The notes under the pieces are model-generated. The model saw only the letters and a list, made by a program, of their open reading frames with translations. It ran no database searches and had not been told where the DNA came from. This document shows, one piece after another, positions 6,140 through 10,004 of a stretch of 64,000 nt of DNA. This DNA is from Agrobacterium vitis (GTDB lineage: Bacteria > Pseudomonadota > Alphaproteobacteria > Rhizobiales > Rhizobiaceae). A program made the translations under genes and the position numbers. How positions within the stretch are numbered: the first letter of the stretch is position 1; each line of letters begins with the position of its first letter. The stretch is from assembly GCF_013337045.2 (NCBI RefSeq), contig NZ_CP118259.1, positions 2,604,001-2,668,000 on the forward strand, read 5' to 3'.

Positions 6140-6154
6140 GTTTTTGTTTTGTTC
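6140..6154 (+). promoter_or_regulatory. Possible LexA box upstream of ruvC
   Basis: GTTT-N7-GTTC is one mismatch from the alphaproteobacterial LexA site GTTC-N7-GTTC and lies 46 bp before the ruvC ATG. Holliday-junction genes are SOS-regulated in several relatives, so the position is sensible, but the site sits in a T-rich stretch and the match is imperfect. Confidence 0.4.
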
Positions 6155-6199: not shown

Positions 6200-6709
6200 A
6201 TGACAAGCGCGATTCGCATTATCGGTATCGATCCTGGCCTGCGCCGCACCGGCTGGGGCGTTATCGAGACATTGGGCAATTCGCTGCGCTTTATCGCATC
6301 CGGTACAGTCATGTCCGATGGCGATATGGATCTGGCTTCCAGACTGTGCCAGCTGCATGATGGACTGGCCGATGTGGTGCATCTTCACCAGCCGGATGAA
6401 GCAGCGGTGGAACAGACTTTCGTCAATAAGGACGCGGTCGCCACACTGAAGCTTGGCCAGGCGCGTGGAATTGCCATGCTGGTGCCTGCCCGTGCCGGAT
6501 TGCCGGTGGCGGAATATGCCCCGAATGCAGTGAAAAAAGCGGTGATCGGCGTCGGCCATGGCGATAAGCAGCAGATCCATATGATGCTGAAGATCCTGAT
6601 GCCGAAGGCCGAATTCAAGGGCAATGATGCAGCCGATGCCTTGGCCATCGCCATCTGTCACGCGCATAATCGCGGTGGTGAACGGATGCGCCGGGCGCTG
6701 GCGGGATAA
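6200..6709 (+). CDS. ruvC: Holliday junction resolvase RuvC
   Basis: Endonuclease that cuts Holliday junctions symmetrically, working with RuvAB in recombinational repair. The 169-residue length fits the family. The acidic metal-binding residues are in place: D11 (IGIDPGL), E71 (VEQTFV), and D143 and D146 (GNDAADALA). It is the first gene of the ruv run, with ruvA 25 bp downstream. A possible LexA box lies upstream. Confidence 0.97.
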
Positions 6710-6734
6710 TCACTCTTTTCATTGGATATGGCAT

Positions 6735-7352
6735 ATGATTGGCAAGCTCAAAGGCACCATTGACGAGATCGGCGACGACCATGTGCTGGTCGATGTGCAC
6801 GGCGTCTGTTACGTCGCTCATTGTTCGTCACGCACCCTGGCGCGGCTGGGCTCGCCCGGCGAAGCCATCGTGCTGTTCATTGAGACCTATGTGCGCGAGG
6901 ACCAGCTGAAATTGTTCGGCTTCATGAGCGCGCTGGAGCGGGAATGGTTTAATCTCCTGCAAAGCGTGCAGGGCGTCGGTGCCAAGGTGGCGCTGGCGAT
7001 TTTGGCCACCCTCACCCCCTCGGAACTGGCCAATGCCATTGCCCTTCAGGACAAACCCGCCATTGCCAGAGCCCCTGGTGTCGGCCCTAAAGTGGCGCTG
7101 CGCCTCGTTACCGAATTGAAAAATAAGGCTCCGGCCTTCACTGGGGATGCCGGAAGTGCCATCGGCCTCAAGCAGGAACTGGGCGAAGGCGTTGCCTCCG
7201 CCCCGGTTTCCGATGCGGTGTCAGCCCTGACCAATCTTGGCTATTCCCGCGACCAGGCCGCCAATGCCATCGCCGCCGCCTTGAAAAATGGCGGTGAAGG
7301 TGCAGACAGTGCCAAGCTGATCCGGCTGGGCTTGAAGGAGCTATCGCGGTGA
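6735..7352 (+). CDS. ruvA: Holliday junction helicase subunit RuvA
   Basis: Binds the four-way junction as a tetramer and loads the RuvB motors. The 205-residue length is normal. It starts [13 protein letters not shown] (domain I OB fold), has the helix-hairpin-helix segments [13 protein letters not shown] and [13 protein letters not shown], and a flexible linker before the C-terminal RuvB-contact domain ([16 protein letters not shown]). I chose ATG 6735 from the family's N-terminus; an upstream in-frame ATG would add 37 unrelated residues. Unusually, ruvB does not follow directly: a toxin-antitoxin pair is inserted. Confidence 0.97.
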
Positions 7353-7372
7353 TTTCCTTGCTTTTGGCGGAA

Positions 7373-7400
7373 TTCCTTACTATTGTCAAAAAGTAAGGAA
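7373..7400. promoter_or_regulatory. Inverted repeat, likely antitoxin operator
   Basis: A perfect 9-bp inverted repeat (ttccttact / agtaaggaa; arms 7373-7381 and 7392-7400, 10-nt spacer) lies 22 bp before the antitoxin ATG. An incomplete half-site (ttccttg) occurs at 7354. AbrB-type antitoxins bind such dyads to autoregulate, so this is probably the operator of an internal promoter. No T-run follows, which argues against a terminator for ruvA. Confidence 0.55.
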
Positions 7401-7421
7401 ATTTAGACCGGGAGGGTCAGC

Positions 7422-7682
7422 ATGAACGTCTTCTACGCAACCATGACCTCCAAGGGTCAAACCACGGTCCCAGCCGAAATCAGGGAGCTGTTGAAGCTGA
7501 AGCCCGGCGACCGGATTCGCTACGTGGTGAAAAACGGTGAGGTCACGCTGAAAGCCAAGAACAAGCGGTTGATCGATCTGGCTGGTATCCTGCATCGTCC
7601 AGGCATGCCCACCCTGACGATTGAAGAGATGGATGAGGCGATCGGTGACGCCATCGTGGACCACGTGATGGGCCGAGAATGA
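7422..7682 (+). CDS. AbrB/SpoVT-type antitoxin (VapB/MazE-like)
   Basis: 86-residue protein with an N-terminal swapped-hairpin AbrB DNA-binding fold: MTSKGQTTVPAEIRELLKLKPGD, then a beta-rich stretch RIRYVVKNGEVTLKA. The acidic C-terminal part (about residues 55-86, EEMDEAIGDAIVD) would wrap the partner toxin. The ribosome-binding site GGGAGG precedes ATG 7422. Its stop overlaps the PIN gene start (ATGA at 7679-7682), so the two are coupled. The inverted repeat upstream is a probable autoregulatory site. Confidence 0.85.
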   Translation: MNVFYATMTSKGQTTVPAEIRELLKLKPGDRIRYVVKNGEVTLKAKNKRLIDLAGILHRPGMPTLTIEEMDEAIGDAIVDHVMGRE

Positions 7683-8077
7683 TCGGCATCGACACCAATA
7701 TTCTGCTGCGTCTCACCATGCAGGACGATGACATTCAAACCAAACAGGCGCTTGCACTGGCCGACAGCCTGACCCAGGACCAACCCGGCTTCGTCAATAG
7801 CGCGGTTTTGCTGGAATTCATCTGGACGGCACGTCGGCAGGTCAAGATGTCAAAAGAAGAATTGAAGATCATCCTATCCGGATTTCTCGATTCTGAAAAT
7901 CTCGTGCTTGAAGACGAAAATGTCATAGAACTGACATTGGATGAAATGGATCGCAGCAGCGAGGAATTTGCCGATATTTTCATTGCTCTCAAGAACAGGG
8001 AGCTTGGGTGCCGGACGACCATGACATTCGACCGGAAAGCCGCACGAACCGTCCCCCATATGGAACTCCTCGCATGA
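7679..8077 (+). CDS. PIN-domain ribonuclease toxin (VapC-like)
   Basis: 132-residue PIN domain. The acidic catalytic quartet is complete: D5 (GIDTNILLR), E46 (LLEFIW), D99 (FADIF) and D118 (TFDRKA), so the nuclease should be active. Family members cut tRNA or rRNA when released from the antitoxin. The start overlaps the antitoxin stop by 4 bp, and its own stop overlaps the ruvB start by 4 bp (ATGA at 8074-8077). The pair is thus embedded in the ruv transcription unit. Confidence 0.87.
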
Positions 8078-9117
8078 GCGCTCAAAACCCTGTTCTCACC
8101 CCGGAAAAGCGCGGCGAAGACGTTGATTCGGCGCTCAGGCCGCAGACGCTGGACGACTTCACCGGCCAGGCGGAGGCCCGTGCCAATCTGAAGATCTTCA
8201 TCGAAGCCGCCAAGAACCGGGGCGAAGCGCTGGATCATGTGCTGTTCGTCGGCCCGCCCGGCCTCGGCAAGACGACGCTGGCGCAGATCATGGCCAAGGA
8301 ACTCGGTGTCAATTTCCGTTCGACGTCAGGCCCTGTGATCGCCAAGGCGGGGGATCTCGCCGCCCTCCTCACCAATCTGGAAGAGCGCGACGTGCTGTTT
8401 ATCGATGAAATCCATCGCCTCAGCCCGGCGGTGGAGGAAATCCTCTATCCGGCCATGGAGGATTTCCAGCTTGACCTGATCATCGGCGAAGGCCCGGCGG
8501 CCCGCTCGGTGAAAATCGACCTTTCCAAATTCACCCTGGTCGCCGCCACCACCCGGCTTGGCCTGTTGACCACCCCCTTGCGCGACCGGTTCGGCATTCC
8601 GGTGCGGCTGTCCTTCTATACGGTCGAGGAGCTTGAACTGATCGTGCGGCGCGGCGCGCGTCTGATGGGGCTTGGCATGACCGATGACGGAGCGCGCGAA
8701 ATTGCCCGGCGCGCGCGCGGCACGCCGCGCATTGCCGGGCGGTTGCTGCGCCGGGTTCGCGATTTTGCCGAAGTTGCCCGTGCCCCCGCCGTCACCCGCG
8801 AGATCGCCGATGAGGCGCTCACGCGGTTGTTAGTGGATAATATGGGCCTCGATCAGCTCGACACCCGTTATTTGACCATGATTGCCGTCAATTTTGGCGG
8901 GGGTCCAGTCGGCATCGAAACCATTGCCGCGGGCCTGTCCGAACCACGCGACGCCATCGAGGATATTATCGAGCCCTATATGATCCAGCAGGGTTTCATC
9001 CAGCGCACGCCACGTGGCCGCGTTCTGACAGCGATTGCCTGGAAACATCTGGGCCTGATGCCGCCGAAAGACATGGAGGCCGCGCAGTTCCGCCTGACCC
9101 TTGAGGATGACGATTGA
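8074..9117 (+). CDS. ruvB: Holliday junction helicase ATPase RuvB
   Basis: AAA+ motor that drives branch migration with RuvA. 347 residues, normal length. Walker [10 protein letters not shown] is at residues 60-68, Walker B FIDEIHRL around 110, sensor 1 ATTRLG, and the arginine-finger and C-terminal winged-helix segments are intact. I chose ATG 8074 ([10 protein letters not shown]) because it matches the family's N-terminus and overlaps the PIN toxin stop as ATGA; a start 66 bp upstream would lie inside the toxin gene. The downstream gene begins within its stop codon. Confidence 0.97.
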
Positions 9118-10004
9118 TAACCAGACGGACGTTTTTCAAGCTGCTGGCAGGCACCGCCGCCGGCATTCTGTCGCTTGGCGGCTATGCCGGGGCGGTGGAG
9201 CCGTTGCTGCGGCTGGAAACCACGCGCTATAAACTCTCCCCGCCCGGCTGGCCGAAGGGCCAAAGCCTGCGGATTGTCGCGCTCGCCGATTTCCATGCCT
9301 GTGAGCCCTGGATGCCGGCTGAGCGGATCGCCAGGATCTGCGAACATGCCAATACACTGGGCGGCGATGTCATCCTGCTGCTGGGCGATTACATGTCCGG
9401 CATGAAACTGGTGACCGGCGTGGTGCCGCCGGAACAATGGTCCAAGGCGCTCTCCGTGCTGAAAGCACCCTATGGCGTGCATGCCGTCTGCGGAAATCAT
9501 GATTGGTGGCAAGATAGCGAGGCGCAGTTGCAACGCTTGCCAGAAACCATGGCCCATCGGGCGCTGCGGTCCGTCGGAATCAATGCCATGTCCAACAGCG
9601 CGGTGCGGCTGGGGTCAGGCGATCAGCCTTTCTGGGTGGCCGGGCTGGAAGACCAATGGGCCTATCTCACCGGCAATCACCGGATGCGCGGTCTCGACGA
9701 TCTACCCGGCACGCTGGCCAAAGTGACGGACAATGCCCCGGTCATCCTGCTGGCCCATGAACCGGATATTTTTCCAAGCGTGCCGGATCGGGTCTCGCTG
9801 ACGCTTTCGGGCCATACCCATGGCGGGCAGGTCAATCTGTTCGGCTGGACGCCGGTCGTGCCGTCGCGCTTCGGCTCGCGCTATGTCTATGGCCATCGCG
9901 AGGAAAATGGCCGCAATATCATCGTCTCGGGCGGGCTTGGCTGTTCTGTCGCACCGATCCGGTTCGGCTCACCGCCGGAAATATTGGTGATCGATCTTGG
10001 CTAA
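9114..10004 (+). CDS. Tat-exported calcineurin-like metallophosphoesterase
   Basis: 296-residue protein of the YaeI type. The N-terminus [12 protein letters not shown] is a twin-arginine signal followed by a hydrophobic stretch, so it is probably exported or membrane-anchored. The metal-binding motifs are in order: ADFHAC, LLGDYM, GNHDWW and the late SGHTHGGQ. Relatives hydrolyse phosphodiester bonds, for example in UDP-diacylglucosamine or nucleotides; the substrate is unknown here. Translation starts at a TTG that overlaps the ruvB stop (TTGA, 9114-9117), implying coupling. Confidence 0.85.

Follow-up and report, generated by a model that had tools for sequence, protein, structure and literature searches.

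Toxin-antitoxin pairs are known from within clusters of core genes. In Rhizobium leguminosarum 3841, the accessible text of one study places a vapBC pair (RL3987-RL3988) immediately upstream of ruvA (RL3989), and reports that vapC, ruvA, and ruvB were called required at every rhizosphere stage by insertion sequencing (PMC11406972). The accessible part of a review lists further cases, including relA-mazEF-mazG and dinB-yafNO-yafP in E. coli, parDE at the relA-mazG site in Salmonella, and ccd between folA and apaH (PMC7167474). Here, we describe a toxin-antitoxin pair located between ruvA and ruvB in a stretch of 64,000 nucleotides from Agrobacterium vitis (contig NZ_CP118259.1, positions 2,604,001 to 2,668,000 of the forward strand), hereafter called the window and used for all coordinates. 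The explanation that we favour, and hold to be probable without being assured, is that a VapBC-type module occupies an old slot of the ruvCAB operon, where recombination in the conserved flanks has repeatedly replaced it with distant alleles of its family, and that the tail of its toxin gene is the ribosome-binding site of ruvB.

Why chromosomes keep toxin-antitoxin pairs is an unsettled question. The ruv slot amounts to a natural experiment on it: at a fixed spot in a core repair operon, many alleles occur, close relatives differ in whether the spot is filled, empty, or decayed, and the joint with ruvB is shared. Such a setting can separate persistence by addiction from persistence by borrowing a neighbour's start site and from a real tie to DNA repair. 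The features of the locus are as follows, with the evidence in brackets.

6140–6154, + strand: LexA-like box GTTTTTGTTTTGTTC, one mismatch to GTTCN7GTTC, 60 nt before ruvC (motif scan)
6200–6709, + strand: ruvC (gene call, family profiles)
6710–6734, + strand: gap between ruvC and ruvA, called slot A, 25 bp and empty in the window
6735–7352, + strand: ruvA (family profiles)
7352–7402, + strand: presumed operator/promoter, inverted repeat TTCCTTACTATT...AAAAGTAAGGAA with TACTAT at 7378–7383 (repeat search for the repeat; the promoter is putative)
7422–7682, + strand: AbrB/MazE/PrlF-type antitoxin gene, 86 amino acids (Pfam, NCBIfam)
7679–7682, + strand: antitoxin-toxin overlap ATGA (sequence)
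7679–8077, + strand: PIN (VapC-type) toxin gene, 132 amino acids, with acids D5, E46, D99, and D118 (Pfam, alignment, structure model)
8060–8073, + strand: toxin tail codons MELLA and presumed ruvB ribosome-binding site, ATGGAACTCCTCGC, with GGA at 8062–8064 (sequence, conservation)
8074–8077, + strand: toxin-ruvB overlap ATGA (sequence)
8074–9117, + strand: ruvB (family profiles)

Identity and distribution of the pair

A preliminary description of this DNA had called an AbrB-type antitoxin and a PIN toxin with four catalytic acids between ruvA and ruvB, and family profiles agree with both gene calls. The antitoxin matches MazE_antitoxin (PF04014; 36.3 bits, cut-off 24.7) and PrlF_antitoxin (PF15937; 37.4 bits, cut-off 32), and the AbrB domain model is the sole NCBIfam model above its cut-off. 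The toxin matches PIN (PF01850; 28.3 bits, cut-off 23.6), a family with two further matches elsewhere in the genome, and is assigned to no family by NCBIfam. Four acidic residues define the PIN active site. They correspond here to D5, E46, D99, and D118, conserved in 92, 92, 90, and 90, respectively, of 92 aligned intact-looking slot toxins (90 from the genus and the family, plus two further named loci). The two ATGA overlaps of the same description are likewise present, at 7679–7682 and 8074–8077. The structure model of the toxin (pLDDT, the predicted local distance difference test, 95.6) has the PIN/VapC fold, and its residues 1–78 align with VapC-type chains, the best match, in a tie, being PcrIIC1. 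Searching solved structures by sequence gave three weak matches, of which 8wmm_G (E 0.12) was the sole PIN-like one, and neither protein matched a PADLOC model up to E 1 in a library that covers described systems only. With a PIN toxin carrying the four acids and, upstream of it, the gene of an antitoxin from a DNA-binding family, the pair is predicted to be a VapBC-type type II toxin-antitoxin module, a known kind of module. Downstream, ruvB overlaps the next open frame (TTG start, 9114–10004) by 4 bases as well (9114–9117).

RuvA was located in 62 of 63 genomes of the genus and in 196 of 199 genomes of the family. The gap between ruvA and ruvB, called slot B, was read in all 62 genus genomes and in 98 other family genomes (78 genera), the latter consisting of 43 rows with a RuvA about 80% identical or higher and of 55 others, roughly one for each additional genus among the listed rows. 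Slot B was filled in 47 genus genomes, empty in 14, and occupied by a remnant in 1. Among the 98 others, it was filled in 43, reduced to a gap of at most 300 bases in 49 (including the decayed L093), occupied by another insert in 3 and by a remnant in 1, and unresolved in 2. A filled slot B was found in 37 of the 78 family genera sampled, and near alleles occur in named records of Agrobacterium vitis, Allorhizobium taibaishanense, Allorhizobium sonneratiae, Agrobacterium albertimagni, and several Rhizobium, so that the genus sampled probably corresponds to Allorhizobium sensu lato. With 47/62 and 43/98 genomes filled, the pair is no private or lone insertion; a lone recent insertion is ruled out by the filling of the slot across the family. 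This place in the ruvCAB operon is a conserved slot, and probably an old one. The preliminary description had presented the pair as wedged between ruvA and ruvB and had called for a comparison of their spacing across the family. As a lone wedge this does not hold, since part of the family has the pair in the same place; plain ancestral content does not describe it either, since alleles about 35% identical replace one another among close relatives.

At one locus (L128, oriented 718–2143), the ruvA-ruvB gap contains two antitoxin-PIN pairs in tandem; a second pair can therefore stand in slot B, and the array may be an intermediate stage in the replacement of one allele by another. A sample of the order comprised 150 genomes, 145 of them from other families, with ruvA-ruvB gaps derived by eye. 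Outside the family, the gaps read numbered 37, each at least about 275 bases long, and the pair was present in only 2, both from family f6 (G064 and G383; four f6 genomes sampled). The remaining cases were four gaps above about 2.7 kb (G393, G085, G347, and G380), short gaps, and genomes with ruvA and ruvB on separate contigs or at a large distance. In families of the order other than this one (L185–L197, L200–L221), ruvA and ruvB are often 0.4–2 kb apart with other DNA between them, and in three f30 genomes (G088, G330, and G395) they lie on different contigs or more than 1 Mb apart. A relative of the pair (43% PIN identity) also occurs at L048, on a contig labelled as a Klebsiella pneumoniae metagenome-assembled genome, a label that may be a binning error.

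The joint with ruvB and the probable exchange of alleles

Among the 90 genus and family toxins (the two extra named loci excluded), the overlap with ruvB measures 4 bases in 83 and 10 bases in L158 (start as called). The best-matching toxin does not abut ruvB in 6, and in L128, one of these, a second toxin does. The antitoxin-toxin overlap is of 4 bases in 73 of the 90. In the tail of the toxin gene (its last 18 bases, ATGGAACTNCTNNCATGA in the window), GGA stands at –12 to –10 before ruvB in 84/84 directly joined slots, in which ATGGAACTNCT is nearly invariant. The encoded tail reads MELL in 84 of the 90 slot toxins, and none of 14 non-slot relatives has it. Codon choice differs between the tail and the gene body: the tail Glu codon is GAA in 93% versus 53% in the body (p = 7e-14), or 84% versus 45% for the 37 toxins of other genera alone (p = 7e-6), the first Leu is CTT in 61% versus 17%, and the second Leu is CTC in 77% versus 23%. 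The ruvB ribosome-binding site is thus likely to lie inside the last codons of the toxin gene, and this tail would serve both the toxin fold and the initiation of ruvB. It is plausible, judging from the sequence, that ruvB translation is tied to the toxin gene.

The occupant of the slot differs between close relatives, and the pair has therefore likely been exchanged many times. Genus slot toxins fall into six classes with two or more members and one single. Among 50 genus pairs whose ruvA and ruvB DNA is at least 91% identical, PIN identity is at least 60% in 24, below 50% in 26, and between these values in none; over the genus and the family, the PIN proteins are 30–40% identical in 92 of the 154 pairs with RuvAB proteins at least 98% identical. 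Two genomes inside the A. vitis group, G297 and G298, encode a RuvA 100% identical to that of the window and a PIN only about 35% identical (37% by local alignment). When the window and G298 are compared in 60-base blocks, the flanks are 83–100% identical and the cassette 38–66%, with breaks at GTAAGGA, just past the operator, and at ATGGAACTCCTC, immediately ahead of the 18 bases that end the toxin gene. The stretch 8060–8073 forms the 3' border of the exchanged cassette.

The phylogenies are consistent with such exchanges. On a ruvAB DNA tree of 62 genomes, slot state needs at least 26 changes (least possible 8; shuffled mean 39.7), with 18 among filled slots and 9 between filled and empty or remnant slots, and sister rows carry unlike states (c1/c5, c1/c7, c1/c2, empty/c3, and c6/empty). 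This tree is a conservative yardstick because the flanks would travel with the cassette. In the PIN tree, which has few columns and many weak forks, genus toxins form several lineages mixed with those of other genera (the genus label requires 7 changes, and all groups together 11). Antitoxin and toxin mostly travel together, their identities being correlated (r 0.82), and the cassette exceeds both flanks in similarity by more than 2 points in 17 of 208 same-class pairs (e.g. 99.9 versus 95.0 and 93.8).

Several observations weigh against this explanation, in its part on the tail or in its part on exchange. The codon p values are overstated because the sequences counted are related. The toxin model places M128–L130 in a C-terminal strand, and a comparable strand closes several non-slot toxins, in some cases with E-L at that place; the tail may therefore be partly structural, and its reading as a purely slot-specific mark is weakened by non-slot tails that are partly alike. 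The ruvAB tree represents one locus and leaves 23 of 59 inner branches open. Antitoxin and toxin are discordant in 7 of 4186 pairs, at thresholds that we set ourselves. In 191 of the 208 same-class pairs, the cassette is not clearly more alike than the flanks, which implies either that most exchanges happened long ago or that the cassette is fast-evolving. The 60 bases adjoining the junction, compared in eight pairs, fall below the far flank in some (75 versus 90.9 in L084/L085) and not in others (L009/L054), and this mixed signal designates no clear donor flank.

The alternative to be taken most seriously, unlikely as we consider it, is that of a selfish module of the ordinary kind, for which its position among the ruv genes is of no functional consequence: ruvAB would work the same without it, and ATGA would reflect gene packing only. 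It agrees with the 49 of 98 family genomes that have a ruvA-ruvB gap of at most 300 bases, and the accessible part of the review argues for it in E. coli operons with inserted pairs, such as relA-mazEF-mazG (PMC7167474). The start regions left in empty slots also fit: a usable start call was available for 63 of 66 empty slots, of which 24 have GGA in the same place and 55 a Shine-Dalgarno-like triplet at –16 to –6, so ruvB is not generally dependent on the toxin gene. What it accounts for poorly is the conservation of the 4-bp joint and of the tail codons across alleles about 35% identical, together with the lack of MELL in the 14 non-slot relatives. The tail is found within one mismatch in 8 of the 66 empty slots and exactly in two remnants (L059 and L098), and some losses therefore spared the ruvB start region.

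A second alternative, which strikes us as rather improbable, is capture and loss, whereby a new pair inserts beside the old one, which is then deleted, the alleles being paralogues sorted by loss with no cassette exchange. Tandem pairs do exist, between ruvA and ruvB in L128 and as double starts in slot A of G110 and G150. However, a clear tandem array occupies slot B in one of 92 filled cases, and in the closest swap, that between the window and G298, the replaced stretch is bounded by a retained operator on one side and a retained tail on the other. That the pair was inherited vertically and diverged very fast, without any exchange, is scarcely credible. One ancestral slot would account for the shared overlap and tail, for the pair being held there by two of the four f6 genomes sampled, and for most same-class cassettes not being more alike than their flanks; against it stand the bimodal PIN identities, with no intermediates at close flank distance, and the scattering of slot states on the ruvAB tree. 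It is also opposed by the codon changes in the toxin within the window's class, which are mostly synonymous (synonymous to nonsynonymous changes between the window and its relatives: 13:0 for L007, 17:2 for L010, 9:4 for L011, and 37:15 for L013). Finally, repeated placement by a mobile element with a fixed insertion site, which would fit the filling of the same spot in 37 of 78 genera, has very little to recommend it, as slots of about 700–760 bases leave no room for a recombinase beside the pair, and both the kept ruvB joint and the tail that persists in some empty slots speak for a long-established resident.

If a VapBC-type module has been exchanged in an old slot joined to ruvB, as we favour, the antitoxin would repress its own promoter at the inverted repeat, transcripts would carry the antitoxin, toxin, and ruvB genes, and the translation of toxin and ruvB would be coupled at ATGA. 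Deletions that keep the tail would survive because the ruvB start site is kept. Either ruvA/ruvB homology or the operator and tail common to the alleles could serve as the route of exchange. As for why the module is retained, it is probably a selfish addiction cassette that ruvB anchors and whose toxin acts as an ordinary VapC RNase.

Operator candidate, slot A, and LexA

The inverted repeat and internal promoter proposed earlier upstream of the antitoxin fared differently. The repeat is present at 7373–7400, with arms at 7373–7384 and 7389–7400 that are 92% complementary and a wider pairing of 7352–7365 with 7389–7402. A scan for consensus sigma-70 promoters listed nothing at 7353–7421, and the one element that points to an internal promoter is the conserved TACTAT (7378–7383) within the repeat. 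As judged by eye, TTCCTTACTATT...GTAAGGA is found again upstream of several PIN classes and in other genera, class 3 has TCCGAC...GTCGGA in its operator region, and class 2 has another sequence.

The possible SOS tie of the pair likewise stood in part. In the accessible text of PMC12700426, the LexA consensus is quoted as GTTCN7GTTC and ruvC of Caulobacter is treated as a late SOS gene. The one-mismatch box upstream of ruvC, present in the window, is kept in 10 of 11 named loci, and 53 of 61 loci, counting copies, have such a weaker box no more than 110 bases ahead of ruvC. An SOS link for the ruvCAB operon is thus plausible. Between 6154 and 8035 of the window, no match to GTTCN7GTTC is listed, even with one mismatch, and the slot B pair therefore has no box of its own. 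A perfect box does stand before a different pair, in slot A, which is empty in the window.

Slot A, judged by a gap size of 737–763 bases, is filled in 42 of the 62 genus genomes. Where its sequence was read, it holds another AbrB-PIN pair, with toxins ending in [STA]PxTHP, the PIN not being found by motif in L270; the 23 slot-A toxins form three main classes, combined with various slot-B classes. Among 30 genus loci, a perfect LexA-type box, GTTCTTGACYTGTTC, lies 1–4 bases past the ruvC stop in 15/15 of those with slot A filled. It also follows ruvC in four named loci (two being copies of genus loci) and in 6 of 20 genomes with an empty slot B, and it is absent from all 20 loci with a measured ruvC-ruvA gap below 100 bases. 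Three loci (L041, L042, and L236) have the perfect box after ruvC with no toxin-antitoxin pair found behind it. A strict pattern of box plus antitoxin start matched in 49 of 199 family genomes and 32 of 109 genera, with 0 matches for a control pattern. All 46 matches that could be checked by eye against RuvA are upstream of ruvA, at no more than about 1.5 kb; G185 and G228 have the pattern less than 300 bases from ruvA, a distance too short for a whole pair. Tandem LexA-box/antitoxin starts occur upstream of ruvA in G110 (C1, 69391 and 70174) and G150 (C24, 46967 and 47296). The perfect box directly before an antitoxin-PIN pair upstream of ruvA, in 32 of the 109 genera sampled, makes SOS control of the slot A pair a sharp and strong prediction.

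A bolder idea, speculative and quite unlikely in our estimation, would make the Rhizobiaceae ruvCAB operon a two-slot exchange platform, in which LexA cleavage turns slot A on, slot B is fused to ruvB at the level of translation, and the two slots re-assort independently. The Holliday-junction machine would then carry and exchange self/non-self toxin alleles, wiring together damage, recombination, and toxin release, and hybrids mixing alleles might be penalised.

Comparison with known systems

A search of the open-licence literature, judged by title, found nothing on a pair between ruvA and ruvB or on vapC with ruvA and ruvC. Like RL3987-RL3988 of R. leguminosarum, as given in the accessible text, the pair of the window is an AbrB and PIN pair in a Rhizobiaceae ruv cluster; unlike it, it lies between ruvA and ruvB, whereas RL3987-RL3988 is at the place upstream of ruvA that corresponds to slot A. 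That same portion of the paper mentions no alleles, LexA box, or conserved slot for RL3987-RL3988 (PMC11406972). With plasmid-annotated VapBC systems whose antitoxin is of the PrlF/AbrB type, the pair shares the gene order, the PIN toxin, the AbrB-type antitoxin, and the 4-bp antitoxin-toxin overlap. All 134 plasmid records matched at below 60% identity, and five plasmid toxins, unlike the slot toxins, have no MELL tail.

The relA-mazEF-mazG group, as far as the accessible part of the review describes it (PMC7167474), resembles the ruv slot in that a pair lies between two genes of a core operon, is absent in many strains, and stands at a site that takes other content. The ruv slot differs from that group in alternating distant alleles of one family across a bacterial family, in keeping an overlap into the next repair gene together with a conserved tail, and in being one of two such slots in a single ruv operon. 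Sequence comparison thus points to an unusual state of a known module: a conserved, multi-allelic, and likely exchangeable slot joined to ruvB, plus a second, LexA-boxed slot.
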